DNA of 64,000 nt, taken from positions 25,723,916-25,787,915 of the forward strand of contig CM057148.1 of the NCBI GenBank assembly GCA_029964075.1. The letters are read 5' to 3'. Under the pieces are notes generated by a model that did not search any database, had not been told where the DNA came from, and was given only the letters and a program-made list of their open reading frames with translations. Of the stretch, positions 21,475 to 45,390 are shown one piece after another. The DNA is from Patiria pectinifera. Its lineage: Eukaryota; Echinodermata; Asteroidea; Valvatida; Asterinidae. The translations under genes and the position numbers were made by a program. Within the stretch, counting starts at the first letter, position 1; each line of letters opens with the position of its first letter.

Positions 21475-24400
21475 TTAGTGGTGATGTCCGTGATGATGGG
21501 GATCGTGATGTGGGGGAGGGTGGTGCTGTAAATCAAAAAGAAAGAGACAAATAGTGATTAGTCAGATGATATACAGACAGATAGACAACATAAACAGATG
21601 GGCAAACAGATATATCAGATGAGAAAATTATTACAACTGACGCAAAGAGCTTCTGAAAATCCGTCTGAATTGCCATCTAAGATTTCATAGGATTTTTTTA
21701 ATCATTCGGCAAAGTGTGTGGTCTTTTTGGCAACTGAGACAGCATTGTATGCTGTAGTTGAGCTGGACCTAAAAGAGTCTGTCTACGACATTTTAAACTC
21801 GGCTAATCAGGGCAGTCAGATCGTCAGTCACTCAATCATTCAATAGACCATTATCATGTTGCAGCTATCTTGATTTTTCCCATTCGAATCAACGTAACCG
21901 ACGCGGGGCTGGAGGAAAAAATAGTATGGTTCCTTTTTGCACAAAACATTATGATTTATTGCTGTTATTGGATACAGGGAACACAACTGAAATGGTGGCA
22001 ACATGATAAAGGTCTATATGGTCAGTCAGTCAGTCGGGCAGACGGACGGGGAGTCAGCCAGTCACTCTCTCAGTCGGTCGGGGAGTGTGCCAGTCACTCG
22101 GTCAGTAGATATGAGTCAGTCAGGCAGTCACCCGAGGAGTCAGTCAGGGAGGCAGTCAGTCAGCCAGTCACTCAGTCAATAGGTCAGGCAGTCATTTCGG
22201 GAGTCGGTCAGTCAGTCACTCGGGGAGTAGGTCGGGGGGGGGGAGGCAGTCAGTCAGCCAGTCACTCGGTCAGGAGGTCAATCAGTCAGGCACTCACTTG
22301 GTCAATGGGTCAGTAAGTGAAGCAGGCAGTCAGTCCGCCAGTCACTCAGGGAGTAGGTCAGGCAGTCACTCGGTCAGTAGGTCAGTCAGTCGGGGAGACA
22401 GTCAGTCCGCCAGTCACTCGGGGAGTAGGTCAGGCAGTCACTAGGTCAGTGGGTCAGTCAGTCGGGGAGGCTGTCAGTCAGCCAGTGTCTCACTTAGACG
22501 GTCGGGGAGTCGGCCAGTCACTCACCCTGTCGGGGTCGGTCAGTCGGGGAGTCAGTCAGTATATCGGTCAGCAAGTCACTCAATACGAGCAATAATGCTG
22601 GCCCGTTAAAAATTCCGTCTAGGCTTGAATAGTGATGTTTGGGCTTATGAGGGGTAAATTTTTGGAAAATGAACCTACATGTACATCATGGTGCACAGGC
22701 GCGTGGTGCGGGTCCACGTGGAGGTGAGGATCAACGTGGTGATGTGGGTCCACGTGGTGGTGAGGATCAACGTGGTGGTGAGGGTCCACATGGTGAGGGT
22801 CATGGTGACCTCCATGGTGAGCATCGTGGTGACTATCCTGATTTGAAGAAACAGAAATATCCCAATCCAAATCAAAGTGGTCCTTTCGTGAATTCCCATC
22901 ATGACGAAGAGGTGGTGGATTTACAAACTCATGTGGAAAAGTACTTTTATAGCAAGTTTAGCAAAATAATGCAGTTTGTTTTTAAGTACAACTTAAGACT
23001 GAAAGGAATCGAACGCATAGACCCCTAAATTGCAGTACCTGCGATATATACTGTGATATACACTTTACATCTTTTTAGGGCATTTGACAAATTCGAAAAT
23101 AGTTGAGTTAATTTTTAATTGTCCTACTTGGAGTACAAAAGGAACCATTATTATTCCTTTTGACTTTTCTTGGCAACGAAGTATAATAGTTTATCTAGAG
23201 AGCTCAACAATCCCCAATTGGGGAGGAAATCCTCAAGCGCAAATGGAGGTGGATCGGCCACACTCTAATGCTAGGTCGTTCACACATTCCCGAACTATTG
23301 CCACGAATACCCCGATCTGTATAGCGAATACAATTTTTTGATGGCATCGGGAGAAATTAGCCCCTATTCGCTGTTAGTAAGAATAACTTAAAGGGAAGAT
23401 ACAGCATTTGCAAACATCACAATAACGAAATTATCAAATTATCATGAAATATCTTACTGGATTGTTAGGGAATGACAGTCTAAAGCATCCTGTAAAATCG
23501 TGGCTCCTGGTTTGCTATCATTCTCAAGAAAAATAGTATTTTTCCAACGCTGGTTGGCCGACCAGCGTTGAAAAAAAATGGCTTTTTTTCAAAACCTGCT
23601 TCTAATTTTTCATAATTAGTCATTCATTGTTTTCTGTGCAATTGATTGCACACCATTGAAGGGTTACAGGCCCGCTAGACTGATTCTCTGACCTTACAAT
23701 TTTCAAAAGTCTATAAATTGCTCCGTTTCATCTTAAGTGGGGTCGGGGAATCAGACTACAAGAACATGATAGGTTTTCTTGGTTTTTTCAACATCTACAA
23801 GCCAGAAACGTGAAACAAGTCATTTTAACGTATTTGGTGATAACATACGAATCCTCCAAATCCATTTACTTCTGAAAATTTCAACAAAATCAAATGTTGT
23901 ACATTCCCTTTAAGAATGAAACAAAATAATCAAGAACTAGGTACGAATTGAAAGCCGAATCAGACCGAATCAAGCCGAATGATTGCGATTAAGTGCAGAA
24001 TAAAACCGAATGGTAGCGATTTCGTCAAGTATAATATACGAATGACTCCAGAATCATGCAGAGTGACCCAATATTATAATATAAATACATTTCTTCATAC
24101 ATTCGTAATGATTCGGCATGATTCTTGACTGTTAACACTGAACATAACTCTACAAAACTTTTAGGGGCGGATTCCGCCCCCCCCCAAGATCTCGGCCATC
24201 GAGTAACGAACAATTTTGAAACTCGGTACATGCATAGAGCAACTCTTCCTAAACATACCCAATGAATTTCATGACTCTAGGTCAAAGGGTTTTGGAATTA
24301 TGGCTAATTAATTATTCATATGTACAAATGGCAATTATGCTCTGTGTACACGACGTATATGCGAAAATTCATTTTTCACGGCGCGTAGCGCCGGAAAATG

Positions 24401-25217
24401 TTTCGCTACGCGGCAACCCGTGGTCCAATTTTTATGTTGTTGGTATCAAAAGATGTGCAAAGCTCGAGGCTAAAAAGTCATAACAGCTCAGGTCGCGAAT
24501 TTTTTTTTTTTAGAGGCTATCACGGAAAATGTTGACGGGGGGGGGGGCGGATTCCGCCCCGGCCCCTTTAGGGTTAAGAATGCTGTAAACACTAAAAATA
24601 ACAAAACAAAGTTGTAAGAATGGTCTACGAATATCCAGAAGTAGTAACGAATACGACAAGAGTAAACCAAGAAATGAAATTGGTTCCCGAATTACCCCGA
24701 CAATTTTGAACATGTCCAAAATTGTCGGGGCGCTTCCTGATCTTTAACGATCTTTCACCGAACTAACAGAATCATCCCGAGGCAGCCAAGAACCATCCCC
24801 GATATACTCAAGAATTGGTATTCGCGGCGATTCGGCTTAAAAATTGGGAATGTGTGAACCTAGCATTACAGGAAGCCGATCACCAGAAAAGCCTTGACTT
24901 AAGAAATAGAGGAAGGCCAAAGAACACCTAGCAGCGAGACACAATGGCCGATGCGAGACAAATGGAAGACAGCTGGAAGGTGCTGGAAAAGCTAGCAAAG
25001 AACAAAGATGGAGGAGCTTATGGCTTATGTGCCACTATGCATCATCAAGGCATAATAAGTATCTAAAGACACTTAAGCGGCAGGTTAACCTGAAAAAGTA
25101 CAAATTTTCACCGAAGAAATCTTGGGGAAAACTTACATGATGTCCACCACCGAAGATGTTGCCTAGGATACCATGGCCGTGGCCATGCCCTTGTCCATGT
25201 CCATGATGATGGCTCAT
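21475..25217 (-). CDS. Histidine-rich small protein, paralogue 4 (three exons, 96 aa)
   Basis: Minus strand, exons 25,217-25,137, 22,837-22,679 and 21,525-21,475. All introns are GT-AG and phase 0 (donors GTAAGT and GTAGGT; acceptors AAATCAG and TTTACAG). The start is the ATG at 25,217 and the stop is TAA. Exon 1 is MSHHHGHGQGHGHGHG followed by ILGNIFGGGHH. Exon 2 is His/Asp rich with repeated HHVDP units. Exon 3 is a short HHPPPHHDPHHHGHHH tail. It lacks both the glycine-zipper segment and the Pro/Tyr tail of its paralogues. No signal peptide or long hydrophobic segment, so probably cytosolic. Dense imidazoles suggest binding of zinc, copper, nickel or protons, which is an inference from composition. 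Intron 1 carries the nested transposons at 23,215-25,060 and the CAGT array lies beside exon 2's downstream side. Confidence 0.75.
22017..22592. repeat. Degenerate CAGT-based satellite in intron 2 of His-rich gene 4
   Basis: About 575 bp built from CAGTCAGTCGG, CAGTCACTCGG and GGGAGTAGGTCAGG variants. Longer blocks repeat, for example 'GTCCGCCAGTCACTC' at about 22,332 and 22,407. Open frames through it are low complexity and not taken as genes. Confidence 0.85.
23388..23913 (+). mobile_element. MITE family A, copy 1 (piggyBac-type, TTAA-flanked)
   Basis: Bounded by TTAA on both sides, with inverted ends AGGGAAGATACAGCATTTG and AGGGAATGTACAACATTTG. The interior matches copies at 54,001-54,409 (same strand, left end missing) and 39,692-40,181 (inverted), including 'AAAGCATCCTGTA' and 'AGACTGATTCTCTGACC'. 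No coding capacity. Confidence 0.75.
24160..24574. mobile_element. Short element bounded by a repeated palindrome
   Basis: Near each end sits GGGGCGGATTCCGCCCC (24,164-24,180 and 24,544-24,560), itself an almost perfect palindrome. The outer ends are TTAGGGGC and GCCCCTTTA, roughly inverted. The interior holds two further GC-rich inverted words around 24,380-24,415. No coding frame. Confidence 0.5.
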
Positions 25218-25372
25218 TCTGCTTGACGGCGGAAACTGAACAAATTCAGACCAAGAAACTGAAGGAAGTTGATGAGTTGTTGGCGGCCCAAGCTGAAATG
25301 AAAAGCACCCGGAATCACACCCCTAGATATAACCAGCCTCGTGACAAAGGCTTGTCACCTGACCGGATCAAT

Positions 25373-25397
25373 CTGCGTCACGAAATGCGTCATTGGG
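25373..25397 (-). promoter_or_regulatory. Promoter module of His-rich gene 4 (two TGACG sites)
   Basis: On the minus strand CCAATGACGCATT is followed by CGTGACGCAG, about 156-180 bp before the ATG. A TATA-like GGTTATATC follows downstream. The same arrangement precedes the other three paralogues. Confidence 0.6.
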
Positions 25398-27319
25398 CTA
25401 TGGGTGGGAAACGTGACAAACCAGAAGTCAAGGAAATAATAATAATTGCGGTATACAACACTATCAATTTAATTGCCAAATTGCTCCGTTTTATCGCTCA
25501 AGGTCCATCTTCTCGAACCGAAAGTAGCCCCGTGACCCATCTTGCGTCGGTAAAGGCCGATAAGGCGTGAATTTTTAGCCCAAAAATAAACAAACAAAAC
25601 CCTTCAAAAGATAGCTTGATGCTTGACATTTGAATTTAAGTTTTGGACGTTAGCTAAGGTCAAAAACTTACACCTTAAATATATCTCTTTTTTGTGTGAA
25701 ATAGTTTTGTTTCGTCGATAAATGTACACGCAACAAATAATTCTGCAAGGTGTTAAATCGGTGAGACGGAATCTGACTCTCGGTTTAAAAATGTGTGAAT
25801 CAATCATTCATGGTGACGTCATTGTATCGTGTTCAAAATAAAATAAGACAATGTCCACATCCACAATTACGTAGCTCTCTCTTCACATACATTAGGCCCT
25901 AATGACGCGTTTGTTAATAGACTTATCCAACGATCAAAATCTAAGCCGTTATTGAGGTATTCACCACGCTCGAGCGCAGGCAATACGCCCACACTTGGTG
26001 CTCGAATAGTACGCCGTGGATAGAAAACTTTCTTCATGTATCCTGATTCTATACCGCAATTGGCTAGTTTATCGCAAATATCGTGTATTTGGTGTTGTGA
26101 TTTCCAACGTGCATGTGTTTTCACGATTACTGTAATTCAGTGGCGTGGCCAAGGGGGGCGTGGGGGGGGCGACAGCCCCCCCTGAAACCTTGTCGCCCCC
26201 CCCCCCGTCGCCCTCCCCCACTAAGATTTTGAGTTTCTAAAAAAAATAGCATTGATCAACATGACGCCCCCCATGAAATGTTCCAGGCCCCACCCCCCCC
26301 CTCCATCCAGCTCACCCCCACTGAACAATTCCTGGCTACGCCACTGCTGCAGTTATAACGTCCACGCCATCTCAACAATACTCATTTCCTTTCCAATTTA
26401 CTCATATCAATATGAAATATGGTGCTGCATAATTGCGGAATAAGATTGTAACATTTTAACTTTGAAAACAATCGTTTTCAATCGTCTTTTTGTAACTCAC
26501 GGCGCAACAATTGATAATGTTTTTATCCCAGACACAGCACAGTTTAAGGTACATAAACGATCTACAGACTATGATGTTTTGACAAAATCCAGATTACTGT
26601 GCACTTTGAAGTCCAAACATTAACAAAATTCGAGTGTCATGTATGTGTATTTTAAAATGAATCAAACCCAAACATGCATTTTACTTTTTATATAAATGAA
26701 ATGGCCCCACAGGAAAGAGTAATAATTTTCGTGATCCTTCTTCTGTTTTAAATTAAAATTATTCACAACTGGGCAATGTCTTATGAAACAGTTTTCGGCC
26801 CGATTACTCTGCGTTTGTAACTCACAAAACTCAAATCTCTATAGTTTTACACTACTTAGGTCATTTACATCGGCAGGGGCTTAATCGGGCGGGGGGGGGG
26901 GGGGGCATATCACCCATTTTTTTGGAACGCCACCCACCTGTACAATGATCAGCGCCCCCTATTGTAATTTGGTGTCCAACCAGCTGCCCGGCAGCCGTCA
27001 CCACCTCCACCCCTCCCCCCGCCGGCACCTAGTGTAATGTGGTGTCAAACCATCCCCCCTTCTTTATTGAGAAGGCAAAAATTACGTTGCATTGTTAACA
27101 ACTGTGTAAGTGGCCCCCCCCCCCCCAGAAACGGATTGTCTCATGCAAATGCCCCCACGCCTCTACCGCAGAGACACTCAGTACAATCATTTTCAACCCC
27201 GAGATAATGTATTATATAAAGCAAATTGTTCTTCACGTTTCACCCCAATGTTGGGAGTCCATATGAAGACACAAAATTGTGCTTAACATTCTATAATCGA
27301 TATTGAACACAGACAAAAG
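25398..27319. other. Intergenic, MITEs and homopolymer runs only
   Basis: No exon found. Contains a hAT-like MITE (26,138-26,346), a run of about 18 G near 26,890 and C runs near 27,110 to 27,130. Confidence 0.45.
26138..26346. mobile_element. hAT-like MITE family C, copy 1
   Basis: Ends CAGTGGCGTGGCCAAGG and CCTGGCTACGCCACTG form inverted repeats. Possible 8-bp target duplication CTGTAATT / CTGCAGTT (six of eight match). Related copies at 34,771 and 36,888 have cleaner duplications. The interior is C/G-rich and non-coding. Confidence 0.65.
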
Positions 27320-27341
27320 TGAAGTAACCTAAAATCAATAA

Positions 27342-27347
27342 TTTATT
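27342..27347 (-). terminator. Likely polyadenylation signal of His-rich gene 1
   Basis: AATAAA on the minus strand about 720 bp past the stop, in a stretch (27,320-27,590) clearly homologous to the one ending His-rich gene 2 at 31,882. Confidence 0.5.
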
Positions 27348-27644
27348 CAGCTATCAACACAATAACACAAAATCACTGAGAATAACTCTTTTATAAAGCA
27401 CCTTATAATACATTTATAAAAAAAAAAAGATTATATGTGACAAAGTTTTTACAACACTTCTTTGCAAAACATGTATTGGCGAACAACTTCTACAAAATCT
27501 AAATATTTGTAAGCACATAAATACTGTATATTTAAATGGTTGTTGCACGAATGTTATCAACGATATCCTGAAGTCACGACGCGTATTTTTATTTTTTCAA
27601 TCTTTTCCGGAAAACTGAGGGCGCTGTTGCCGTGATGTCATTTC

Positions 27645-27979
27645 AGGAAGACACTGTTCAGTTAAGGGGTTCTCTGTTCAAATTTTGAACCCACAAATGT
27701 GCCCACTGAAAACATCTGTGAGAAATGTTTTCTCACTGGCTTACTGCTATGTACTGACACAACGGGTCACCAAAAGAACAGAACATTTACGATAGCAAAA
27801 TATCCAATATTCTGGCAACTTGTGGTACTGACTTTTAACATTGAGGTTTCTGCCTGAAACGGCGTCACACATTTTACTCATGAATATGTAAATTTGCATT
27901 ACCAAAAAGCATCAAAATACCCTTGAAAATGGCAAAACAAAAATTGAAATATTATTAAATAATTGCATTGCCCCTTTAA
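27645..27979 (+). mobile_element. MITE family B, copy 2 (left end missing)
   Basis: Right end GCATTGCCCCTTTAA with TTAA at 27,976-27,979. The interior aligns with copies at 787, 35,290 and 35,948. It lies within the inferred 3' UTR of His-rich gene 1. Confidence 0.55.
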
Positions 27980-28068
27980 GTGTCCGGGAAATTGAACAAG
28001 AACTGTCAAGTACATGTATCACTTCCAATCATCAGCAAGGTTTTCCAAGGGAGATACGAGGTTCCTGT

Positions 28069-29567
28069 TTAGTGTGGGTACTGTGGCGGGCCGGGGTAGG
28101 CTGGAGCTGACGGGTAAGCTGGGTACGCAGGAGCAGCTGAATAGGCGGGTGGAGCGGGGTAGGCTACCGGGGGTGGAGGTGCGTGTTGCCCGGTGTGGTA
28201 GGCTGGAACGACCACGGGTGGGGCCTGAAAATAACACAAAGGAAAAGGCGATGATTAGATAATGATTTAAAACACTGAATCAGCCACAATCTCTTGTCTC
28301 TCTCTTAGTCTTATTTCATGTGTCAAAGATTCATTTTGTACTATAGGCGATTCTTGCCTCTTCTTGGCATGAGGCCTATCTAGGCTGATACTATATAAAC
28401 AAAAAATACACACACGCACACCCAAGTGTGTATTTTTGCCTTCAATTCGGGACCCCTATTGTCCCTCTTTTGTTTGCACTACATTGTAACTTTTTTTTAA
28501 GAAGACCTCCCACATGTTTTGTACACGAATCCAATCGGGAATTGGGGACACTATTGTCCTCTATTGTTTAACGTCCCCTATTGAATGCAGAAACAAACTC
28601 ACGCACATCTCGTTTTTACTCTACTCATGAGGACAAGATCCTTTCCTCTTTGTGTTCCCTTTAGTTTGTACAACAGTTCCCATAAGATTTGTACACGAAT
28701 TCTTCCGAGGACTAGTGCCCACGTTCTCGGGCCATTTGAAATCGCACACACCCCCATTGTCCTAGTCCTTAGTCGTGAACGGATAACCAACCCAAATCAG
28801 CAGTTTCCCTGCCGTTTTTATCTTTCAGGGAACTGGGAATCGCTGACCGCAACTGAGATTTAATAGTTAAAGAGAGAAGCAATTTGGGGACAGAGAAGGA
28901 AAGGAAATATCATCTGTATCATATCCTTTCATTGTGGACTCAATTCAATTCACTGTAAGCATAATAGAGACGACTGGAAAAACGTTTATTATTTAAACGG
29001 CGGTACGCGGGCGTGAACTCACCTGTACGTGTACAACTGCTGGCTGTTCATGTCGTCTAGACGCCGCTCCGATCGCTGCACCGACCGCCAGACCGGTTAC
29101 GATCCCACCGTGGTGATGATGACCATGATGATGATGGTGATGGTGACCATGCTGTGAAGAAATCAATTCAAATCACATGTCAGATTTGTATCATCTCCAA
29201 TCTAATACTACCATTATGAGGCTTGTGTTAAAACGCAGCAGGCAACGATATCCCTGACAACAGAATATCCGAGGCCTAAATAAGAGTACCGACTACCAGT
29301 TTTTAATTTATTCATAAGATGGAATTTTGTGTCGGGGTGATGTAAATCAAATTAACTTTTGCCCTCCACCGACGTATAAACACTGTACACTCAGTGTGTT
29401 ACCTCCCGAGTAAAAATTGTCTATTTCCCACTTTTTTATTTTTTTTTATTTGAATGAAATTTGAACCACCTTATTTAACATTTCTTTTTTCAGTTTTATT
29501 TCCCTCCAATACTTACGTGGTGACCAAAGAGTCCATGTCCGTGATGGTGATGGTGATGCAGCGGCAT
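28069..29567 (-). CDS. Histidine-rich small protein, paralogue 1 (three exons, 111 aa)
   Basis: Minus strand, exons 29,567-29,517 (17 codons), 29,151-29,023 (43) and 28,224-28,069 (51 plus TAA). Donors are GTAAGT and GTGAGT, acceptors TTCACAG and TTTTCAG, both introns phase 0. Exon 1: MPLHHHHHHGHGLFGHH. Exon 2: a His tract (two runs split by Gly), then a glycine-zipper-like GIVTGLAVGAAIGAAS and a basic/polar end. Exon 3: Ala/Pro/Tyr-rich with AYP repeats ending GPPQYPH. No signal peptide. The short GxxxG segment could insert in or associate with membranes, or drive self-assembly; His suggests metal binding. These roles are inferred from composition. I do not recognise a named family. Closest relative is gene 2: same layout, homologous promoter and 3' UTR. 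Confidence 0.8.
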
Positions 29568-29716
29568 TTTAGACAAAACAAATTGACGATCAAAAATATC
29601 AAAGTAAAATATCAGAATGCGTTCGGTTAGAAAATGATCAGTTATCCGACGCTCTCTCAATTTATGGATGTGGAAATGTTTAATAATAATAGCTTGTCAC
29701 ATGATGATTGCGCGTT

Positions 29717-29744
29717 CCTACGTCATCACACAAATACGTCATTG
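29717..29744 (-). promoter_or_regulatory. Promoter module of His-rich gene 1 (two TGACG sites)
   Basis: Minus strand CAATGACGTATT followed by GTGATGACGTAG, 150-177 bp before the ATG. The surrounding 200 bp aligns with the upstream region of gene 2, including a CATAAATTGAG word about 80 bp before the ATG that may serve as the TATA element. Confidence 0.65.
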
Positions 29745-31839
29745 ATTTCTGGTTGTCGAAGCACCGCGTGACTACAGTTAGGCTATATAAACCAAGAGTA
29801 CTATTTACATTGGTTTCTTATCGCAAGGACCAACAATAGTCGCTGACAATGGGAAATAGATGCGGGAAAGGTTATTCTAAAAACAGAACATTAGTCACTG
29901 TGCTCGTGTGTTTTTATAGCCTATTCAACCTACGTTATTTACCAGTGCTCATGCGCACCACGTTTTGAAGCAGACGACAGCGTTTATGTAGTCTGGTTCC
30001 CAGACCACAAGAATCAGACTATTTTTTGATGAATCTCAGGACAGGTAGCTGCCAAGGCACGTGCCCAAAAAGGGAGGAATGCCTTCAGGTTCCGAAAATG
30101 TCCGAGGGGTGCCGAATGCGTATCGTTGACAATCTTGGCGCCCGGGTATTTTGGGGTATAAGTAGGTTGTATTTATGCCATGGGTATTAACATTTTCAAA
30201 AATGAGTTGATAATTAATATTCATTGCTTGCATTAAAAAAAACCTTTAAATTCAATGACGATTTTGTGCATCAAGTATGCACCCGGATCGTACGAGGGGC
30301 GAACTTTGCTGCGTCATGTATTATATTTTGGATCTGACAACGGTTACAAAACTCAGCGTGGTCTCCATTTCCGCTTCACCTGCTATTTGTGTCCCTTACT
30401 TTGAAGATTCCAGCTCAACATTTGTCACTGCTTACAGAAACACACATCTATGATATATGAAGCGTGTGATTTTCTTGCTAATTGATTGGAACATCAATGG
30501 TAAACCCAAACCGGAAACGGAGCCGAGCTTTGAAAAAGGACCATTATGCTTATTTGTTTAGCCAGCTGGCGGTTACCTGACCTACAATTTTGACGTCAGG
30601 GCGTCAGTGAATTGTCAGGTAAGGGAACCTGACTAAGTTGATGACGCTTGCAGACGACAAAATCTGAGAAAATAAGTAGCAGGGATAATTAACTGGCAGA
30701 ATTGACAATCGCAGACATTATGAAAGTGGTTATTATTGTTTTAAGACTCATCCCTCGCCCACCACCCAAAAAAGAAATCTATCTATCTACAATGCAAGAA
30801 GGGTAAAATTGTGAAACAACCATTATTCTATGCTGTACCCCTCCCCTCCATGTGCACGTTTTCAGAATCCGCATTGGTAACTGACAAGTCTGTCTGATAC
30901 GTGTGGACAAAACACAGAGCCATGCACGATTGTTTCCATGGTTAAAATTCAAACTCCACAGCCGACCCTAGTCTCTATCCTGGGCCTGCCTAGCCTCAAT
31001 TCATGGCTCTTCCTTACCGTTAGCGGAAAAAAACTCCCCCCATCCTGTAGCGCAAAATTCCTTGCTTATGGGAAGCATATTTCACGGTTTAAGGAGGCAT
31101 GTTGGCTTATGCCCATGAGTACTATGGTACATCCTAGAACTGCAAACAGGGTTAGCACATATTATTTTTGCTAGCACTGTTAGAAATAGCAGAAAATGGT
31201 GATCGTAGGCGCAGAATTCTTTGGTTAACTAAGCCACGGAATGGGGCCCTGGCCCCAATCCGACCACTGTTGGCTATACCCAGTGGATCGCCCGCAGCCC
31301 CTTTCTTTAAAACCATCTTCACTTTGCATACTTTGAGCAATGTTTTTTCTCATTAAATCATCCTGTCGGGTTAGTAAGTGTCTTTAAAAACTCATTGAGT
31401 GCCCCTCTCCTGAAAATGAGGCCCCTAATCCCCCCTCCCTGTAAATGGGCGGCGACTGCAACAAGATGACAGCAACACTTACCCAACAGTTTCAATACTA
31501 CGGTTGCGGTTTTCATATAGTCGTTTTTATTGAGGGCGGGATACAAACGTCTTGAAAAAGGCACTCGTACATCCGTGCTGAAATGTAGACAGGTATTTTT
31601 CTCCAGACATTTGGCCTCAGTAAAATCAAATAGTGGAGGGACTTGTTTTTTTTTTTGTTTTTTTTAATCATTGGAGGGGTACGCAAGTAAAAAGAAGGCA
31701 CTTGAATGGAAAAGGGCAGTCTTTACACAATATTGCGGTGGCCACCCCCACCCCGCTGTACTAAATGTGTGCCTAATGTCGCGAGTCCACATAAATGTGG
31801 CAAAAAACTATAATTTTTCGTTATATATTCGAGAAATCA
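29745..31839. other. Intergenic, nothing recognised
   Basis: No exon, RNA gene or clear repeat that I can support. A CRE-like GACGTCA followed by GGGCGTCA lies near 30,591 without an adjacent gene start. Confidence 0.4.
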
Positions 31840-31881
31840 AAATTAAAACAAGTACACGTAGTTGGTATTTAGTACACTGTT

Positions 31882-31887
31882 TTTATT
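31882..31887 (-). terminator. Likely polyadenylation signal of His-rich gene 2
   Basis: AATAAA on the minus strand, at the position homologous to 27,342 of gene 1. The shared block includes 'TTCTTTGCAAAACA' and 'TGGTTGTTGCACGA'. The inferred 3' UTR is about 1.2 kb and is lengthened by SINE-like insertions. Confidence 0.5.
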
Positions 31888-32517
31888 CATCTATCCAAAC
31901 ACACAAAACATTACCGAAAATAAGTTATATAAAACACCTTATAATAAAATTTCTAAAAAGCATAATATGTAACTAAAGTATATACAGCAGTTCTTTGCAA
32001 AACAAGTACTTGCAAATAAATTATACAAAATTCTCACACACAAAAAACAAATAAATACTTTATATTTAAGTGGTTGTTGCACGACAATCTACAAAAGGTG
32101 TCACCGACTTGCTGAAGTCATATTGCGTAAATGTATTGGTCTTTCGATGGGACATAAGTCTAAAGACAAGCAGGCAAACTTTCTTGAACACAGAATGTTT
32201 GGTTTACCTGTACTAACAAAGTACCAGCCAAAACAATGTATGTTTTTGCTGATGTAATTTTTCATAAGATAGAACAGCCATCTCATAAACACCAGGGACA
32301 ATACTGAGTGAACTGTGTTTGTTATAATACATCGGTAAAGGGTAAAAACCCAATATTCAACGTACATCACCTCGACGAAAATTTCATCTTATGAATAGTT
32401 TTCTTGCAGGACCCGCTGGTTGTTGTTTTTTCTTAAATACCACACGCTGTTAGTATATTTAGAATTATGCTGGAGGGCCCTATATATGCTGAAGTATAAT
32501 GTTTAAAACTACCGCAT

Positions 32518-32812
32518 CAATCGAATCACTGCTGTAGTGTCATGGCTACTACATTGGATTACAAATCCGATGGTGCGAGTTCGATTCCCATTGGATGCTA
32601 TTTAAAGTCCGAGAACCTGACTTGCAACTCAACTTACTTCGAAATACGCCCACATATGCATGTGTACAAATAAAAAAGGTGTACGGAAAAAAATAGCGCT
32701 ACCCGCTGCTATATCAGATTCCAAACAGCCAGCTGACTCTAGCAAGCTCGGACGTCTGTACAAGTAAGCAAGAGGTCGTGAGTTCGAATCGCAACCGATT
32801 GATTTGTTTCTA
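32518..32812 (+). repeat. Two tRNA-like SINE fragments in the 3' UTR of His-rich gene 2
   Basis: The first carries GAGTTCGATTCCC (32,577-32,589) and an A-box-like TGTAGTGTCATGG. The second carries GAGTTCGAATCGC near 32,780-32,795, after 'CAAACAGCCAGCTGAC', a block also seen near 58,240 and 58,450. Absent from the homologous UTR of gene 1. Confidence 0.45.
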
Positions 32813-33079
32813 ACACTCACCCGGGTCAACACTGGAGTACACAATGTTTATAATAAAAGTACGCCCGTGAAGGGAAAACCCAAAATTGATGTAGGGTGTT
32901 TTTTTTTCTATTAAAGCAATGTGACGTTCGGCACTTTGGCTGCTCCTTAAAATTTTATCAAGATGTTTACTTCCGCATTGTATAAAGAAAGATTGTTGTA
33001 CTTTGGCAAATGAACAAGAAGTGTCCAGTATCACTTCAAGTCTTCAGTTAGGTTTTCCAGTGGAGATGCGAGGTTCCTT

Positions 33080-34243
33080 CTAGTGTGGGTACTGAGGAGG
33101 TCCGGGGTAGGCAGGAGCTGTAGGGTAGGCAGGAGCTGACGGGTAGGCTGGAGCTGACGGGTACGCTGGGGCTGCTGGTGCAGCCTGTACTGCCGGAGCA
33201 GCTGAGTAGGCGGGTGGAGCGGGGTAAGCTACCGGCGCCGGAGGTGCATGTTGCCCGGTAGGGTAGGCCAGAACTACCACTGGCGGTGCCTGGCAAAATA
33301 ACACCAACAAGGAAGAGGCGATGATTAGAGAATTGTCTGATTGTACAGTGGCTGTGCCAAATTTGTTTTAGTTTTCAAAAACTGAAGGTTTACAGTTTGA
33401 ACAAGGGATAATATTAAATTGAGGATTGGTCTTTAAAGTAAACGAACGTCACAAACAAATCAAGTTTTTATGGAAATCGCCAACCACAAGTCAAATCCAA
33501 GGTGGAACCAAACAAGAAACAAACAGAGGAGAATATGTTGATATTTTATTCAAAGAGTGAGATGTTTTAAGACAGGGTTAAAAAAGATAGTAGAAGGGAT
33601 ATCCTTTCGTTATGAAATAAACATAGATATTCTGAATGTAAAACAAACGGGGTAATTTGTCCATTGAGGAAACAGTAACAAAAACGACTCGGAAAAAGTC
33701 TAGTATTTACTAACATGCGTTGAAATGTACTACTCACCTGCGCAGCAACTGCACGTCGTTCCCGTCGCCTAGACGCTGATCGAATCGCTGCACCGACCAC
33801 CAGGCCGGTTATGAGTCCACCGTGGTGATGATGACCATGGTGATGATGGTGATGATGACCGTGCTGTGAAGGAATCAATTCAAATCAATTGCATCATCTC
33901 CAATCTATTCTAGCATGCGGAGGTTTGTGTTAAAGCTGAGTACGTCAATGACTGATCGTTTGAAATAACAGAGTTTCCGAAATCGTGTTTCGTGGTCAAA
34001 AGATTGCGCATGGCTTTTTCACTGTTTTCTCGGAAAGTGTATAGTATCCACCGAGTTAAACATTCCAATTTGAAGACTCTTTTTTGGATTATGAGTAGGT
34101 TTTTTATTTGAAACAAACGAAGTACATGGAGAGTAAATGATCCTATAATTGTACTACAATTGAGTTTGTCAAATTATTACTCAAATACTTACGTGGTGAC
34201 CAGGGAGTCCATGCCCGTGATGATGATGGTGATGATGCAGCAT
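33080..34243 (-). CDS. Histidine-rich small protein, paralogue 2 (three exons, 128 aa)
   Basis: Minus strand, exons 34,243-34,193 (17 codons), 33,863-33,738 (42) and 33,289-33,080 (69 plus TAG). Donors GTAAGT and GTGAGT, acceptors TTCACAG and TTGCCAG, phase 0 throughout. Exon 1: MLHHHHHHHGHGLPGHH. Exon 2: His runs, then GLITGLVVGAAIRSAS and the basic patch RRRERRAVAAQ. Exon 3: AYP/SAPAYP repeats, longer than in gene 1 by 18 residues through repeat expansion, with the same GPPQYPH ending. The sequence after the stop is homologous to gene 1 (GGAACCTCG..ATCTCC). The pair is a fairly recent tandem duplication. Function not recognised; metal or proton binding is inferred from composition. Confidence 0.82.
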
Positions 34244-34389
34244 TTTGGACAAACACAATTTAACAACCAAAACAACACAAGTAAATTATCGGTATACGAT
34301 CGGTCGAGGAATGAAAAGTTATCCGACTCTCACTCAATTTATGGATGTGGACATGTTAATAATAGCGCGCCCCGTGACAATTGCGTGTT

Positions 34390-34415
34390 CCTACGTCACA
34401 CAAGTACGTCATTGG
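34390..34415 (-). promoter_or_regulatory. Promoter module of His-rich gene 2 (two TGACG sites)
   Basis: Minus strand CCAATGACGTACTT then GTGTGACGTAGG, 148-172 bp before the ATG. A CCATAAATTGAG word shared with gene 1 lies between it and the start. Confidence 0.65.
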
Positions 34416-34770
34416 TTTCCGATTGTAGAAACACCGCGTGACTGCAGTTAGTATACAAGCTCGAGGACTTTTCACAAACGGTCAACAACAATAATATGCG
34501 CTGACAATGGATCTATATCAGGAAAAGGTCATTCTAAAATTAGAACAGTACTCGCTGTGTTCACCTTTCACATAGCGGCGTTTACCAAACCACGGCTACA
34601 TCTGCAGTTCCGTTTCGTACCTGGATAAAGAATCATTTTCTGAAGCCCAAACTCGGGGAAAAATGTAATATTCCTTGTCTGTTCGTCCGAGTTCAACGAT
34701 TTTAAAGATGGAATCGGTACAGTTCTGATGTTTTATATTGTAATAACTTGATGTGCCTTCATGCAGTAAG

Positions 34771-34987
34771 AGCCACTTATTGGCGTAGCCAAGATGGGGG
34801 TGGGGGGTCCTGGGGGAGGGGCACGTCTTTCCCCTCCTCCCACCCCTGCTTTTCGAATTTGCTGCGCTTATGGTGGCGTGGAAATTTGGGTGAAGTTTTC
34901 TTGGGTCCACCATTGATGCCCCCTTAATGCTTGTGTCCCCCCCCCCTCCGGGCCCCCACTGCACAGAAAATCCTGGCTACGCTACTG
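34771..34987. mobile_element. hAT-like MITE family C, copy 2
   Basis: Contains the TGGCGTAGCC / GGCTACGCTACTG inverted ends. The flanks GCAGTAAG (34,763-34,770) and GCAGTAGG (34,988-34,995) match at seven of eight bases, an 8-bp target duplication as made by hAT transposases. Confidence 0.7.
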
Positions 34988-35289
34988 GCAGTAGGGACAC
35001 TAGAAGGGTACATGCCTCGGATGGCCTGGGCGTGCCCTATAATACCTCCCCCTTCCTGTTACGCCACTATAATTACACCTGCCAAAGGATTTGCACGTTT
35101 TTGCCTCCCAAAGGAAACGTGCATTCCTGGGTCAAACCATGGTGAAATAAGCCCCTGTAAAGGGTTCAAACGATGAATTCTTTTTAGGAACACATTTTGT
35201 TCAACTTTCTACTCCTCCTAAATGTATGGAAACTATAAGACAACCCCCTTTTTGATTAATTTTATTTAGGAGTGCACTTTTTTTAAAGA

Positions 35290-35690
35290 TTTCAAATGAT
35301 GCTATTTCAGAAAAACACTTTTCTGTTTAGGAATTTAATTTTCAAATTGCGAATCCAAACTGTTCTCATTGAAAACATCGCTGCGAAAGGTTTGCTTACT
35401 GCCATGGACTGACACAGCAACGATTCACCCAAGAAAAGAAAATTTAAGACAGCAAAATATACAAACTTATCGCACTTTTCATCCTGAAATGGTTGTAACA
35501 TTGCGGTTTCTGCCCAGAATGACTTCACAGTTTTGTTCATGAATATGGAAATTTGCATTAGCAGAAAAACAAAAAGGACACTAAAAAAATAAAAATGGCA
35601 AAATAAAAAAATGAAAATTAGGTTAAATCGGACACAAAGATGCATTTCAAGGATTGAATTAAAAAAATACATTGTATGGGCCCTTCAATT
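35290..35690 (+). mobile_element. MITE family B, copy 3
   Basis: Interior aligns with copies 1, 2 and 4: a 'TTTGCTTACTGCC' block, 'GCGGTTTCTGCC' and 'ATGAATATGGAAATTTGCAT'. The ends are worn. Confidence 0.5.
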
Positions 35691-35947
35691 AAAAACGAAA
35701 CACATTCCTGGATTAATCATTACACGTTGAAACATCCGATCTCGTGATACGCTATCACGCGTCTAGTGCTACACACATGTTGATAAACAGTAAAACGAAA
35801 GCGAAATTCAGGATCTGGCAAGTCTCTTCATAATTGTTATTGGATGTGCAATGACTGTATACCGTGGACCAGAGTTCGTGTGAATTTATGATGAAATAGG
35901 AATTTGAAATATTGTTTCAATAATTATATCCGGCAGGGAAGGCTATT

Positions 35948-36394
35948 TTTAATGCAATCCTAGAAAATGCACCTTTGAGTCCAATTTAACCTTATTGTTT
36001 TCAAGGGTGTTTTGTTCCCATTTTGTTATGCTGTATCAAATTCCTATATTCATGAGCAAAACTGTGGTGTCATTCCAGGCAAAAACCTCAACGTTACAGC
36101 TATTTCGGCACAAAATGATGCTAGAATTTTGGATACTTGCTGTCGTAAATTTTCCTTTTTTTCTTTATTTTTTCCCCCTTTTTGGGGGGGGGGGGATTTG
36201 TTGTTGTATCAGTACATCAGTAAGCCAGTGAGCAAAACTTTCTCACAAATGTTTCAATGAGTGAATTTTGGGGTTCACAATTTGAACAGAAAGCCCCTAA
36301 GCTGAACAGTATGAAAATGTTCATACATTTTATAGGCCAGTAGAAAGATGAACATTATGTTCCTAAGAAAAACATCACTGCATGACCCCTTTAA
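35948..36394 (-). mobile_element. MITE family B, copy 4 (inverted)
   Basis: Reverse complement starts TTAAAGGGGTCATGCAGTG (end at 36,394) and follows the family order. With copy 3 it forms a large inverted pair about 250 bp apart. Interrupted by a G run near 36,190. Confidence 0.6.
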
Positions 36395-36887
36395 GTTGTT
36401 TGACTGAACAGGCCTAGCATAATTTTCCATCTTTGTTTCCCTTTTGCACTACTTAGAGGGTAAGTCAGAATGATTTGGACCCAAAATGAAAGAAAATATT
36501 TAAAATATGTATTAACAAAACAAGTGCAAAAGAGATATGTTGTAGGCTGGTATTTTGGGTCATATTTGGTAAAAGTTTCATGTTTATCCATTTTACATCG
36601 CGTATAGTGATGTGACTTCATAGTTTCAATAAATTTGTTGAACAATGGAACCGAGGTCAGAGTGTTTTGGCGTGTGTTCTTGGCTAGCGCTTTTCATCAA
36701 AATGGTACAATGTAGGCTATACACATGAAACTTTCAGAAAATATGACCAAAATACCAGCCTTTAACATATCTCATTTGCACTTGTTTTGATAATTGCTAC
36801 AAATTGTAACGGTAACACTGCGGTATAGATGTGTCGTTTAGCTTGTTATCATTTGCGGCATTTAGCTCTCGGAAAGGGAAGCGACAG

Positions 36888-37037
36888 CCGTGGCGTAGCA
36901 ACGGGGGACAAAGCCCCCTGTCACCACCAACTGAGATTTTGCGTTCCAAAAAAAAATATCATTGATCTATATGACGCCCCCCCCCCCCATGAAATGTTCC
37001 AGCCCCCCACTGAAAAAAAATCCTGGCTACGCCACTC
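36888..37037. mobile_element. hAT-like MITE family C, copy 3, with perfect 8-bp duplication
   Basis: A 150-bp element beginning CCGTGGCGTAGCAACGG and ending CCTGGCTACGCCACTC. It is flanked by AGCGACAG on both sides (36,880-36,887 and 37,038-37,045), a perfect 8-bp target-site duplication. Confidence 0.8.
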
Positions 37038-38174
37038 AGCGACAGACATTCGTTTCAGCGCTTATTCCAAAGAATAATGCGATTGAAAAAAGAGGATTCC
37101 CTAGGCCACATTTCTGTTCAGTGTAATACCGATATCAAAGAGTTAAACCAAAAAAAGCAAAATACATTTACATGAGTTCAGAGAGGGAAGGAAATTTGTT
37201 TGATATTATTTTGTACATAACAGTTTATTAAAATATAATTTACAAAGAATGTAGAAAGGAATACATACATGTACTTTGTTTCAGAAATAGGATTTCAGAA
37301 ATCCGCTTTTCATCAAAATAATCATGTTCATAAACATTCAATTTTTCACTTTAAAAGATTAACTTTCCTCGATATTTCGGATATTTGTTAAAATCTGTTG
37401 TGTAAAATATTTACATCATTTCAACATTATTTGTTAAATGCACAAAGTATTTCAGATAGAAACAAAAGCATGTTGCAAACATTTGTTTACATTGCTGTTT
37501 CAGAGATTGCCTTTACCGCAAAGCAAGAACATACCTTGATTTCAGTTGAAATGTTTCCGATTAAAGACAAATGTAAACTGAGATGTATCAACTTATTGTT
37601 ATAATGGTCCATAATTGAATTTAAACTCAACTCGAACAATTGCCAAAAAGTTTATTGTACAAATATGCCTTCCCCTTTAATTGAAACCTTTGCTTTGTTT
37701 TGTCAGTATTCATTTTCGTATTCCTTTATCGGCTTTAAAGACCCAGCCAAATGGTTACATATAAATCAAGTTGAAGGGAACTTTGAAACCCATTCACTGT
37801 TGAAAAAAAATGATTATGTCACGCCAGCATGCATCGTCCAACAAAGAATGCCAGTTGTATTTAAAAAAAAAAAAATAGAGAAATATCTACATCCATGCAT
37901 TACGACCATGACCTTTACAACATAACAGAAAAGCTTATCATTCAAGATTGAGGGCAGGTCTTCGTTCATTGGTTATAATTATGCATAAGTAGCAATAGTT
38001 ATGCAGATGTTGCACTGAATTTGAATAACCAAACCTGCCTTGGCGCGGTACGAACGCTCTGCGCATGAGTTGGTAGAAGCGGGGGATTAGGAAAGAATGA
38101 AGCCACGCCCATTCTGTCCTCGCATTGGAGGTTTTCATAAAGGTGTTCAAGTCTCGTTAACCGATGATGTGATT

Positions 38175-40597
38175 CTAGCGTGGATAGGCAGGATATCCCG
38201 GAGCTGATGGGTAGGCAGGCTGCGCAGGCTGTGGGTAGGCAGGCTGTTGGTAGACAGCAGGGGCGGGTGGAAGCATCGCACCGGTCGGGTAAGCTGGCGG
38301 GGCAGCAACCGCTGGAGGAGCCTGTAGGTGGGGTAACAAAAAAAAAAGATCGTGTCTAAACTACCTGGGTTACAATGGATCATTCCTGCCTGTCAATCAA
38401 GAGTGCCTCTCAGTGACCAATCACATTACGTCGTTTGGTCAGGTGACCATGGTATACATTAAGAAACTCGGTGACACACACAGTGCAACATTTATTCAAA
38501 CCAGAGGTGGGCGGGGCTCAATATGGTTTGATTCTGTGTTTATTTAAATTTCCATTCATACAAAAAGTTGTTACACAAATTATAGAATAAACGAAATAGG
38601 TTATATAATAAATGTTGCATCAAGAGTAGAATAATGATATGAATGGGTGGGACATCCGAGAGAAGGACAAAGCCCTCTGCAGAGGAGCACCCAAGACTGG
38701 CGCCGGATTACAGAAAAAAAAGTAATGAAAAATATACAATTTATTTCGGTTGCATAACTTCAAAAAGATGTTTATTTACGAGTATAGTTGAGGCCACACT
38801 CGGCCTAGTCGTGAGACTTAACACAAGAACACCATTATGAACGGTTAACATCACTGTCAATATAACTTTCTCCAGAAATGTATTTTAGTTGATTCAGTTG
38901 AATTTAACTTAATTGAAACATCAAACATACCAGACCACAAAAAAACAATAATCATTTTTATGAAAATTTGAATTAAAGAAAACCTGACCTAAAAAAGGGC
39001 AACCGGAAAAAATAAGCGAAAAATCTGGGGACGGTCAGAAAATTAAATCAAAAAGACAGACCGACCAGCAGTAATTTGAAACACGCCTTTCAGAGTTTGT
39101 AATACTTTTACATGCAAGACATGTGCAGACGCTATGTCACTAACTTGTACTAACCACATAAGCACACAAATAGCCAACAAGAGGTTGGCTAACAAATGGA
39201 TACAAGAAGTTCACACGACTCGAAACACGTCTGTTTTTTGCTTTATACTCACTTGAACGTGTACAACCGCAGGCTGCCGTTGCGCAGCACCAATGGCAGC
39301 CCCGACCGCAATTCCAGCCGCTACACCGCTGACGTGTGGGGCGTGATGATGGTGATCATAATGATGATCGTGGTGATCGTAGTGGTGATCGTAGTGGTGG
39401 CCGTGGTGATCGTAGTGGTGATCGTGGTGATCGTAGTGGTGACCGTGGGGGTCGTGGTGAATCACGTGGTGGTGATGATCATGATGGTGATCATCGTGCT
39501 GCATAAAAAAAAGAGAGAAAACATCGAACAATTACTTTTACATGCAAACAGCATGATGCAGTCATAAATTAAATTAAAAAAACAACAAAACCCCCAACAA
39601 ACCAACAAACAACCCAACAACCTAACAAACAGACACCTCAACACCCCCAACAAACAAACAAACATACACAACGCAAAGACTATAATAAACTTTAAAGGGA
39701 AAATACATCATTTGCTTTTGCTGTAATTTTCAGATATGGATTGATTTGGGGGTTGGTAATATATAGCAAATATTGTTACACTGACTTTTTTGACGTTTTG
39801 GGTTCGTAAATGCTCTAAAAACTGAGAAAAACAATCAGTTTCCTGTAGTCTGGTTCCCTGACTCCATTTAAAATGAAGCAGAGCACTTTATAAATATTTA
39901 GGAATTGTAAAGTCGGGGAACCAGTCAAGCTGACTCGTACTAATTAATTATGTTCCATTCCGGCTAGCATTTGAAAAAAAGCCAGTATTTTTTTCCCAAC
40001 GGACGACCAGCGTTGGAAATTTATGAATAAAACCCATTTTTCTTTAAAATTACATTACACCAGGTGCCACGATTTTACAGAATGCTTTAGACTGCCATTC
40101 GCTTACAGTCCAGCAAGGTATTTCAAATTGATTTGGTATTTTTATTGTTTGAAGTTTGCAAATGCTGTATTTTTCCTTTAAGGTTTTTAGGGAAGGTAAT
40201 TTAAAAAAAAAACGAAAGAAAACTACTTCCGTAGGCCGTGTAAAAAGATGTTAGAAACAAAAAGTCTCTATTTAAATTTCAATTGTACCACTTATTCTGA
40301 AAATAAATTTGAAAAAACTGCACCATTCTCAAGATCTTATTTGATCCCAGGCTTTAGGCATAACTCATTCAAATTACGCCACTACACTAAAGCCAAAGTA
40401 CGCCAACCACCGTCCTGCCTCATGCAGTACAGTCTTTTTTTATGATTTTGCATGGCTTTTAATTTTGTTGGGACCAATCCTTGTCCAAAAAGGGTAAAAA
40501 AACAGAAAAGACAATCTAGAAACCGACTTACATGGCCAAATAGACCGCCAAACAATCCATGTCCATGTCCATGTCCGTGGTGATGATGATGGCTCAT
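38175..40597 (-). CDS. Histidine-rich small protein, paralogue 3 (three exons, 152 aa)
   Basis: Minus strand, exons 40,597-40,532 (22 codons), 39,498-39,253 (82) and 38,321-38,175 (48 plus TAG). Donors GTAAGT and GTGAGT, acceptors TTATGCAG and CCTACAG, phase 0. Exon 1: MSHHHHHGHGHGHG then LFGGLFGH. Exon 2 is the longest of the family: a His/Asp/Tyr array with repeated HHYDHHDHH units, then the zipper-like GVAAGIAVGAAIGAAQ and PAVVHVQ, the latter also ending exon 2 of gene 1. Exon 3: Ala/Pro/Tyr/Gln-rich with PAYP repeats ending GYPAYPR. No signal peptide. It has the gene 4-type leader but the gene 1/2-type tail, so it may be closest to the ancestral layout. Metal binding is inferred from composition only. 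Confidence 0.78.
39692..40181 (-). mobile_element. MITE family A, copy 3 (inverted), in intron 1 of His-rich gene 3
   Basis: TTAA at both ends (39,692-39,695 and 40,178-40,181). The interior is the reverse complement of copies at 23,388 and 54,001, with the same 'GACCAGCGTTG' and 'CAGAATGCTTTAGACTG' landmarks. Confidence 0.7.
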
Positions 40598-40745
40598 CTT
40601 GAATTTATTCAACAAATGAAGGTTCAACGGAACGGAAAAAAAGAGTCAACGCTGGCAATTTCCCAAGCAATGAACAAATTTCTGCCAACTGGCCAAATTA
40701 TACGAAAGCCAACAACGCCCCGCGCAGTGGATGCCACCTGACTCC

Positions 40746-40770
40746 CTGCGTCACGAAAACACGTCATTGG
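40746..40770 (-). promoter_or_regulatory. Promoter module of His-rich gene 3 (two TGACG sites)
   Basis: Minus strand CCAATGACGTGTTTT then CGTGACGCAGG, 149-173 bp before the ATG, as in the paralogues. A TATA-like GTATAATTTGG follows about 60 bp downstream. Confidence 0.6.
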
Positions 40771-43089: not shown

Positions 43090-45390
43090 ATGCATGAATT
43101 AAAAAGTTTTTCTCTGCTTTGAAACATAACACTGTTGAGGTAGAGAAAAACAATAGCTTGTCTAAATCTTCAGTCTAGTTTGTCTTTTTTTTCATGATGA
43201 ATCACCTGACCACCATTCAATTTAATGCATGGCTTATTTTGTTCAGATAGTTTGTGGACGTGACTATCGTTTCCGAGCAAAAAGTGTGGAAAATGGTCTG
43301 CTTGGACTGGGGCTGCATATTCTCGCCATTTTTTTTCTCTTTGCGTTGAAACAAGACAATGTTGAGGAAGAGAAAAACAATATTTTGTCTAAATCTTATG
43401 TTTAGTTTGTCTATTTGTCATGATAAATCACCTGGCCACCTTTCAATTTATTGCATTGCTTATTTTTAAAGATAATTTGTCGACTTGACAATCGTTTCCG
43501 TGCAAAAAGTGTGGGAAATGGTCTGTTTGGACTGGGACTGAAAACTCTCGCAATTTTTTTTTTCTCTGCGTTTAAACAGGAAAATGTTGAGGGAGAGAAA
43601 AACAATATTTTGTCTAAATCTTCCGTCTAGTTTGTCTATTTTTTATGAAAAATCACCTGGTCACCGTTTAATTAAATGCATTGCTTAATTTTTTGGAGAT
43701 AATTTGACGACGTGACAATAGTTTCTATGCAAAAAGGGTGGAAAATGGTCTGTTTGGACTGGGACTGCATACTCTCGCCAAGTTTTGTTTCCGCGTTGAA
43801 ACAAGACACTGTTGAGGGAGAGAACAACAATATTTATTCTATATCTTCCGTCTAGTTTGTTTAATTTTTTACGATAAATCACCTGGCCAGTGTTCAATTG
43901 AATGCATTGCTTAATTGTTGAGATAATTTGTCGACGTGACTATCGTTTCCATGCAAAAAGTGAGGAAAATGGTCTGTTTGGACTGGGACTGCATACTCTC
44001 GCCAAGTTTTTCTCGGCGATGAAACAAGACACTGATGAGGGAGAGAAAAACAATGTTTTGTCTAACTCTTCTGTCTAGTTTGTCTATTTTTCATTACTAA
44101 TCACCTGGACACAGTTTAATTTAGTGCATTGCTAAATTTTTGAGAAAATTTGTCGACGTCACTATCATTTTCGCTGAAAAAAGTGTAGAAAATGGAGTGT
44201 TTGGACTGGGACTGCATGCTCTCGCCAAATTTGTCTACGCTTTGAAACATGACACTGTTGAGGGAGAGAAAAACAATATTTTGTCTAACGCTTCTCTCTA
44301 GTTTGTCTATTTTTCATGATAAATCACGTGGCCACCGTTCAATTTAATCCATTGCTTAATTTTTGAGATAATTTTTCGACGTCACTATCGTTTCGCTGCA
44401 AAAAGTGAGGAAAATGGTTTGTTTGGACTGGGACTTCATACTCTCGCCAAGTTTTTCTCCACGTTGAAACAAAACACTGTTGAGCTGGAGAAAAACAATG
44501 TTTTGTCTAACTTTTATGTCTAGTTTGTCTATTTTTAAATGATAAATCACCTGGCCTCCGTTCAATTTAATGCATTGCGTAATTTTTGAGACAATTTGAC
44601 GACGTGACTTTTGTTTCCCAACAAAAAGTGTGGAAAATGGTCTGTTTGGACTGGGACTGCATACTCTCCCCAATTTTTGCCCGGGTTGAAACAAGGTCTG
44701 TTGACGGAGAGAAAAAAAATAGTTTGTCTACGTCTTCTGTCTAGTTTGTCTATTTTTTATGATAAGTCACTTGCTTACTGTTCAATTAAATGCATTGCTT
44801 AATTTTAAAAATAATTTATCGTCGTGACTATCGTTTCAGTACAAAAAGTGTGGAAAATGGCCTGTTTTGACTGGGACTGCATACTCTAGACAAGTTTTTC
44901 CCCAGGTTGAAACAAGGCACTGTTGAGGAAGAGAAAAAAAATATTTTGTCAAAATCTTCTGTCTAGTTCGCCTAGTTTTCATGAAAAATCACTTGCTTTA
45001 TGTTCAATTAAATGCATTGCTTAATTTTTGGGACAATTTGTCGTCGTGACTATCGTTTGCGTGTAAAAAAGTGTGGAAAATGGTCAGTTTGGACTGGGAC
45101 TGCATACTCTCCCCACGTTTTCCCCCGGGTTAAAAAAAGACACTGTTGAGATAGAGAAAAAACAATATTTTGTCTAAATCTTCTGTCTAGTTTGTATATT
45201 TTTCATGATAAATTACTTGCTTACTGTTCAATTAAATGCATTGCTCAATTGTTGAGATAACTTGTCGTCGTGACTGTCGTTTCCGATAAAAAAAAGTTTG
45301 GAAAATGGCCTCATTGGACTGGGACTGCATACCCTCGACAAGTTTCCCCCCGGGTTGAAACAAGGCACTGTTGAGACAGTATAATAAGGT
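43090..45390. repeat. Tandem satellite, about 223-bp unit x 10
   Basis: The word GGACTGGG recurs at about 43,304, 43,529, 43,756, 43,980, 44,203, 44,425, 44,648, 44,868, 45,091 and 45,316, a spacing of 220-227 bp. Each unit also has 'GTCTAGTTTGTCTATTTTT', 'AATCACCTGGCCACC' and 'TGCATTGCTTAATTTTT' in that order. Units differ by point changes and small indels. No coding frame is conserved. Confidence 0.92.

Follow-up and report, generated by a model that had tools for sequence, protein, structure and literature searches.

We have analyzed a cluster of four small histidine-rich genes in the genome of the sea star Patiria pectinifera. The genes lie on the minus strand of a 64,000-nucleotide stretch (C20:25723916-25787915, here called the window) within an assembly of 613.5 Mb, and are named A (40597-38175), B (34243-33080), C (29567-28069) and D (25217-21475), in window positions. 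A check of splice sites and translations gave three exons for each gene. All eight introns have GT/AG ends, and the exon lengths are all divisible by three, so that every junction is in phase 0. The coding sequences translate without internal stops into 152 (A), 128 (B), 111 (C) and 96 (D) residues. These are the three-exon, phase-0 models that an earlier sequence-only reading had proposed, and we regard this anatomy as near certain. An in-frame stop is found 45-132 nt 5' of each ATG, and therefore the His-rich leader is the N-terminus of each protein, barring an upstream exon.

The cluster is part of a duplicated block of ~34-36 kb, whose two copies lie ~190 kb apart on one contig: window positions 13519-49862 are largely colinear with C20:25545801-25580082, and the main pieces are 87-96% identical. 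The copy retains A-D in intact form, with their GT/AG splice sites. A codon comparison of the four coding sequences between window and copy (340 synonymous and 1112 nonsynonymous sites) counted 35 synonymous and 3 nonsynonymous changes, a ratio of nonsynonymous to synonymous rates (dN/dS) of about 0.02 (Fisher p 9e-20). The synonymous/nonsynonymous changes per gene are 11/0 (A), 4/0 (B), 6/2 (C) and 14/1 (D). Proteins A and B are identical in window and copy; the copy's C has three residues fewer and its D one residue more, both in frame. In the nucleotide alignment, whose totals differ slightly from those of the codon comparison, the 37 substitutions fall at third (34), second (2) and first (1) codon positions, and the synonymous to nonsynonymous ratio is reversed when the frame is shifted by +1 (1:34) or +2 (3:33). 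Among the 136 codons that specify His in either copy there are 10 silent changes and a single residue change, where the window has Leu and the copy His. For the older paralogues B and C, the comparison counts 35 synonymous changes and 19 nonsynonymous ones. Because of the synonymous/nonsynonymous pattern between the copies, we conclude that A-D are real genes whose amino acids matter despite their low complexity. The block pair may represent a segmental duplication or a retained haplotype or assembly duplicate; the selection test is independent of this choice. Low-complexity His-rich genes are easily taken for noise, and here strong purifying selection holds the protein, histidines included.

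The four genes also share a rare promoter element, which is new in this analysis. All of A-D and their copies have the sequence CAATGACG(N)TGACGYAGR at 168-178 nt 5' of the ATG (171-178 nt in the window, 168-178 nt in the copies). The element resembles a combination of the NF-Y box, CCAAT, with bZIP half-sites, TGACG being a half-site of the CREB/ATF/XBP1 factors. Across the assembly (613 Mb), the pattern CAATGACGN{4,16}TGACGYAGR has nine exact matches, eight of them at A-D and their copies. Base composition predicts 2.2 matches, the reversed pattern used as a control has none, and a narrower form is matched five times, always at these genes. Because A-D served to define the pattern, its presence there is expected; it is the rarity elsewhere and the position that carry the weight. 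With the copies being duplicates and B closely paralogous to C, the eight sites are not independent and amount to about three lines (A, B/C and D). Seven of the eight elements contain CCAATGACG, the exception being C of the window with TCAATGACG. CCAATGACG is common to A, B and D, and any shared 9-mer was obtained in 3 of 3000 mononucleotide shuffles. Apart from one block, there is little alignment between the sequences upstream of A, of B/C and of D. Between window and copy, ~42 of 1584 sites differ in the 400-nt upstream regions and 438 of 6566 in the introns, with an upstream divergence of 1.8-4.3% across genes. We propose that A-D are probably co-regulated through this element; a testable consequence is that one CCAAT/bZIP-type signal should turn on all four genes jointly. 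The ninth match, at C19:25123550, contains a full cAMP-response element (CRE), TGACGTCA, and another GTGACGTA site is found downstream; no His-rich frame occurs within 3 kb of it.

The features of the cluster are listed in Table 1. Gene B also has an 18-nt tandem repeat in exon 3 (33105-33174). A GTCA-rich tandem repeat (window 22021-22486) is located in the second intron of gene D; the copy's version of this intron is shorter by 210 nt.

Table 1. Exons and promoter elements of genes A-D (window positions; assembly positions in brackets)
Feature	Position	Strand	Basis or remark
Gene A promoter element	40745..40769 (C20:25764660-25764684)	-	172 nt before ATG
Gene A exon 1, His/Gly leader MSHHHHHGHGHGHGLFGGLFGH	40532..40597	-	splice sites
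Gene A exon 2, His/Asp/Tyr tract and GVAAGIAVGAAIG zipper	39253..39498	-	splice sites; predicted helix
Gene A exon 3, AYP-rich tail, 1 PPxY and 1 P(S/T)AP, stop	38175..38321	-	translation, motif count
Gene B promoter element	34390..34414 (C20:25758305-25758329)	-	171 nt before ATG
Gene B exon 1, His/Gly leader	34193..34243	-	splice sites
Gene B exon 2, His tract, GLITGLVVGAAIR zipper and basic RRRERR	33738..33863	-	splice sites
Gene B exon 3, AYP tail, 2 PPxY and 3 P(S/T)AP, stop	33080..33289	-	translation, motif count
Gene C promoter element	29717..29744 (C20:25753632-25753659)	-	177 nt before ATG; TCAAT, copy CCAAT
Gene C exon 1, His/Gly leader	29517..29567	-	splice sites
Gene C exon 2, His tract and GIVTGLAVGAAIG zipper	29023..29151	-	splice sites
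Gene C exon 3, AYP tail, 2 PPxY and 1 P(S/T)AP, stop	28069..28224	-	translation, motif count
Gene D promoter element	25372..25395 (C20:25749287-25749310)	-	178 nt before ATG
Gene D exon 1, His/Gly leader MSHHHGHGQGHGHGHGILGNIFGGGHH	25137..25217	-	splice sites
Gene D exon 2, (HHHVDP)n His/Asp tract, no zipper	22679..22837	-	splice sites
Gene D exon 3, HHPPPHHDPHHHGHHH and stop, no AYP tail	21475..21525	-	splice sites

The proteins are 19-45% His (A 42/152, B 24/128, C 26/111, D 43/96), which bears out the extreme His content noted in the sequence-only reading, and neither they nor their copies contain any Cys. A modular plan had been ascribed to all four. This holds for A, B and C, in which leader, His tract with Gly zipper, and AYP tail each occupy one exon, but not for D, which has neither zipper nor tail. 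The zipper GxxxGxxxGxxxG is exact in A and C, and in B an R replaces the fourth G. D resembles A in its leader exon (DNA family D10, 80% over 41 nt), in an exon 2 of His/Asp style and in its promoter element. In line with the lack of signal peptides proposed earlier, hydropathy alone showed no signal-peptide-like N-terminal hydrophobic stretch in A-D. An AlphaFold2 model of A exon 2 with three relatives places a helix at residues 57-73, over the zipper, with a mean predicted local distance difference test score (pLDDT) of 71 at residues 61-70 of A exon 2, in agreement with the short glycine zipper proposed earlier.

No relatives outside the duplicated block were recovered by the searches. None of the four proteins has a Pfam match at E values up to 1, consistent with the earlier failure to recognise a named family. 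The one NCBIfam match, of B at E 0.096, is meaningless. The search of PDB sequences covered A and C. A gave one weak match to a complex I subunit (E 0.023), a match of composition; C gave 42 matches (best E 0.00064, a GMP synthase chain), which were dismissed as matches of tags or composition because 35 of the 42 start at chain residues 1-5, like purification His-tags. In 258 kb of sequence, made up of the window plus the 194 kb on its left side, His-dense stretches (12 rows), the zipper pattern (8) and frames with at least three [AGQ]YP (6) were found nowhere but in exons of A-D and their copies. A genome-wide query running from zipper to tail had 13 matches, of which the best 10 fall in the two clusters and the other 3 have E values of at least 2.9; this query missed the tails of A and all of D, and diverged low-complexity relatives may escape it. 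With the tail of B as query the tail of A was not recovered, and two weak tail matches of six that lie elsewhere (C8 and C1) have no His tract, zipper or AYP frame within 3.2 kb. The exon 1 DNA pattern matched only A and its copy, and is of little value because as written it is incompatible with B, C and D. No further family member was thus found in the assembly beyond the cluster and its copy, with the reservation that low-complexity relatives could escape, and the papers listed by literature searches for proteins of this kind include none recognisable as this family. A-D thus make up a real family under purifying selection which, as far as these searches show, is confined to one locus and its copy; the libraries consulted contain no described relative.

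The tails of A, B and C contain PPxY and P(S/T)AP motifs (1/1, 2/3 and 2/1, respectively), in the same numbers in the copies. Excerpts of the literature describe these motifs as engaging NEDD4-like ligases and ESCRT-I (endosomal sorting complex required for transport I). Both counts were reached together in 2.6% (A), 0% (B) and 1.4% (C) of 20,000 composition shuffles. P(S/T)AP occurs at the same place in all three tails, and the PPxY positions of A are out of alignment with those of B and C. Because of this misalignment and the high chance level of PPxY, docking through these motifs is a lead.

Promoter sites were also counted in the 600 nt upstream of each of A-D (4 x 600 nt). Genes regulated by MTF-1 have clustered metal-response elements (MREs, TGCRCNC) in the proximal promoter. 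Here the MRE core occurs once, against ~1.4 expected (background 0.34 per 600 nt), and the 8-base form TGCRCNCG and the heat-shock and antioxidant patterns do not occur at all. Full CRE sites are not enriched. The sequence-only reading had suggested metal- or proton-responsive assemblies; classical metal induction finds no support in the promoter sequences. Cores of the hypoxia type, RCGTG, number 12 against about 5 expected (A 2, B 3, C 4 and D 3, with 1.25 expected in each). This excess makes inputs other than bZIP possible, and hypoxia-type or E-box-like factors may act on these promoters.

Taken together, these features suggest a scheme in which four tandem paralogues, under one shared proximal promoter module, would make small intracellular products. 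The conserved His tracts would bind transition metals or shift their charge near neutral pH, and so switch self-assembly. In A, B and C the predicted glycine-zipper helix that follows the His tract could drive the proteins to oligomerise or to dock weakly on membranes, and partners may bind at the Pro/Ala/Tyr tail, with PPxY for WW domains and P(S/T)AP for the UEV domain of TSG101. Lacking both zipper and tail, D would simply act as a soluble His/Asp binder that is produced together with A-C. Transcription would be set by the CCAAT and bZIP-type TGACG sites, not by MTF-1. A metal or pH response of the proteins is plausible. The whole mechanism, with intracellular proteins, His tracts as a metal/pH switch of self-assembly and a shared promoter module, is offered tentatively, as quite possible. 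Its fullest form, a private co-regulated set with His metal/pH switches on zipper assemblies, tails docking onto the ESCRT/NEDD4 machinery and a near-exclusive CCAAT/bZIP-like module, is very improbable. If the proteins do assemble with metal or pH, they would be a small, naturally occurring example of an intracellular condensate or scaffold that histidine switches.

Several observations weigh against the scheme. The AlphaFold2 model as a whole is of low confidence, with a mean pLDDT of 55, a predicted template modelling score (pTM) of 0.23 and the remainder poorly defined. The zipper segment is weakly hydrophobic (summed values of +1.7 to +3.6 on a position-independent scale), and because of this modest hydropathy a membrane-spanning role is doubtful; the segment may oligomerise or dock. 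The observed number of PPxY motifs is reached in 17-50% of the composition shuffles, and P(S/T)AP is borderline in A and C (6% and 8%). Of the promoter results, the MRE count and the RCGTG excess must be set on the same side, as must the TCAAT in place of CCAAT in the element of the window's C and the uneven upstream divergence: that of B (4.3%) is higher than the divergence of its own second intron (0.7%) and of the second intron of C (2.6%). Finally, GHGxY repeats, which according to excerpts of a study of His-rich squid beak peptides are necessary for the phase separation of those peptides, are found in none of the eight proteins (A-D and copies). In favour of the scheme, the same excerpts describe phase separation of these peptides that sets in as His loses its proton, at about pH 6-7 and above (PMC6884462).

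Other explanations can be considered for the same genes. That they are a low-complexity artefact, chance frames in simple repeats, would fit their repetitive sequences and the lack of any real library match, but 34 of 37 substitutions are at third positions, splice sites are kept in the copy and a promoter element is shared. This reading is refuted by the substitution pattern, and we give it practically no probability. The proteins could instead be metal buffers under MTF-1, like metallothioneins with His for Cys. Their His content of 19-45%, their lack of Cys and the ligand-like His/Asp repeats of A and D would suit such a role, although four 600-nt promoters hold a single MRE core where ~1.4 are expected and none of the 8-base form, and a zipper and a Pro tail are superfluous for buffering; we consider this unlikely.

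As ESCRT/NEDD4 adaptors, the proteins would steer membrane cargo or vesicle release: WW-domain ligases and TSG101 would be recruited through the tails, and endosomal pH or metal load would be sensed through the His tract. This reading draws on the presence of both motifs in A, B, C and their copies, on the low frequency of joint counts in shuffles (2.6%, 0% and 1.4%) and on the equal placement of P(S/T)AP in three tails. The misalignment of PPxY between A and B/C, a tail composition that favours chance PPxY and the lack of a tail in D speak against it, and it seems distinctly unlikely. Squid-type histidine-rich beak proteins (HBPs) are secreted and have a signal peptide, and worm jaws contain His-rich material proteins. 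Structural or adhesive material proteins of this kind, released by a non-classical route, are improbable here: coacervating His-rich peptides, as described in excerpts of the squid work (PMC6884462), are similar to the Gly-His leader and the His/Tyr repeats, but there is no signal-peptide-like stretch by hydropathy, GHGxY is absent and the leaders are short and single-copy.

The surroundings of the cluster were also inspected. On the plus strand, window 1579-6915 holds a 1778-aa open frame (stop to stop) with a NACHT domain and tandem leucine-rich repeats, which is NLR-like; four similar stretches (~80-82% identity) occur upstream on C20. On its left side the homology of the duplicated block continues into this NLR-like gene (about 83-86%), and a second partial copy of the block's left end is found at C20:25538964. 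On the right side the homology stops at 49862, save for short inverted pieces. A tandem array of about ten 223-nt units (window 43104-45375) is present in the copy too, and a ~1.45 kb unit that occurs about three times at 45852-49862 is represented by one unit in the copy. Another array, of about four 219-nt units, lies at 49878-50715. Bindin, an echinoderm protein, is matched at one place in the assembly (PF02084, E 1e-33, frame LRHLRHHSNLLARIGDP), which points to an echinoderm genome; a search for COX1 had no match.

Parallels can be drawn with several known systems. Metallothioneins, with their many Cys in CxC/CC motifs, are likewise small and dense in metal ligands; A-D, in contrast, contain no Cys and show no MRE excess. 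Hydrophobic glycine-zipper segments, such as those of the CHCHD2/CHCHD10 type, are likewise short helices of Gly, Ala and Val with GxxxG spacing and occur in small proteins that are mostly disordered, but here there is no Cys and hence no CHCH motif, a His tract and an AYP tail are present, and Pfam gives no match. The LITAF, NDFIP and ARRDC adaptors share PPxY and P(S/T)AP in a Pro-rich region, whereas A-D have no Pfam domain and the composition of the tails favours the motifs. The plant XYPPX proteins, or glycine-rich protein A3, combine Tyr-Pro repeats, an Ala/Gly hydrophobic stretch and a His/Gly region, but in reversed order and in a distant organism, and the likeness is likely one of convergent composition. 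Squid HBP-1 and HBP-2 are load-bearing beak proteins with GHGxY; A-D have neither GHGxY nor a signal-peptide-like stretch, and A-C have a zipper and AYP tail. As described in excerpts of the squid work, they resemble A-D in their disordered His- and Gly-rich repeats with hydrophobic or aromatic residues and in a plausible His-switched self-assembly (PMC6884462).

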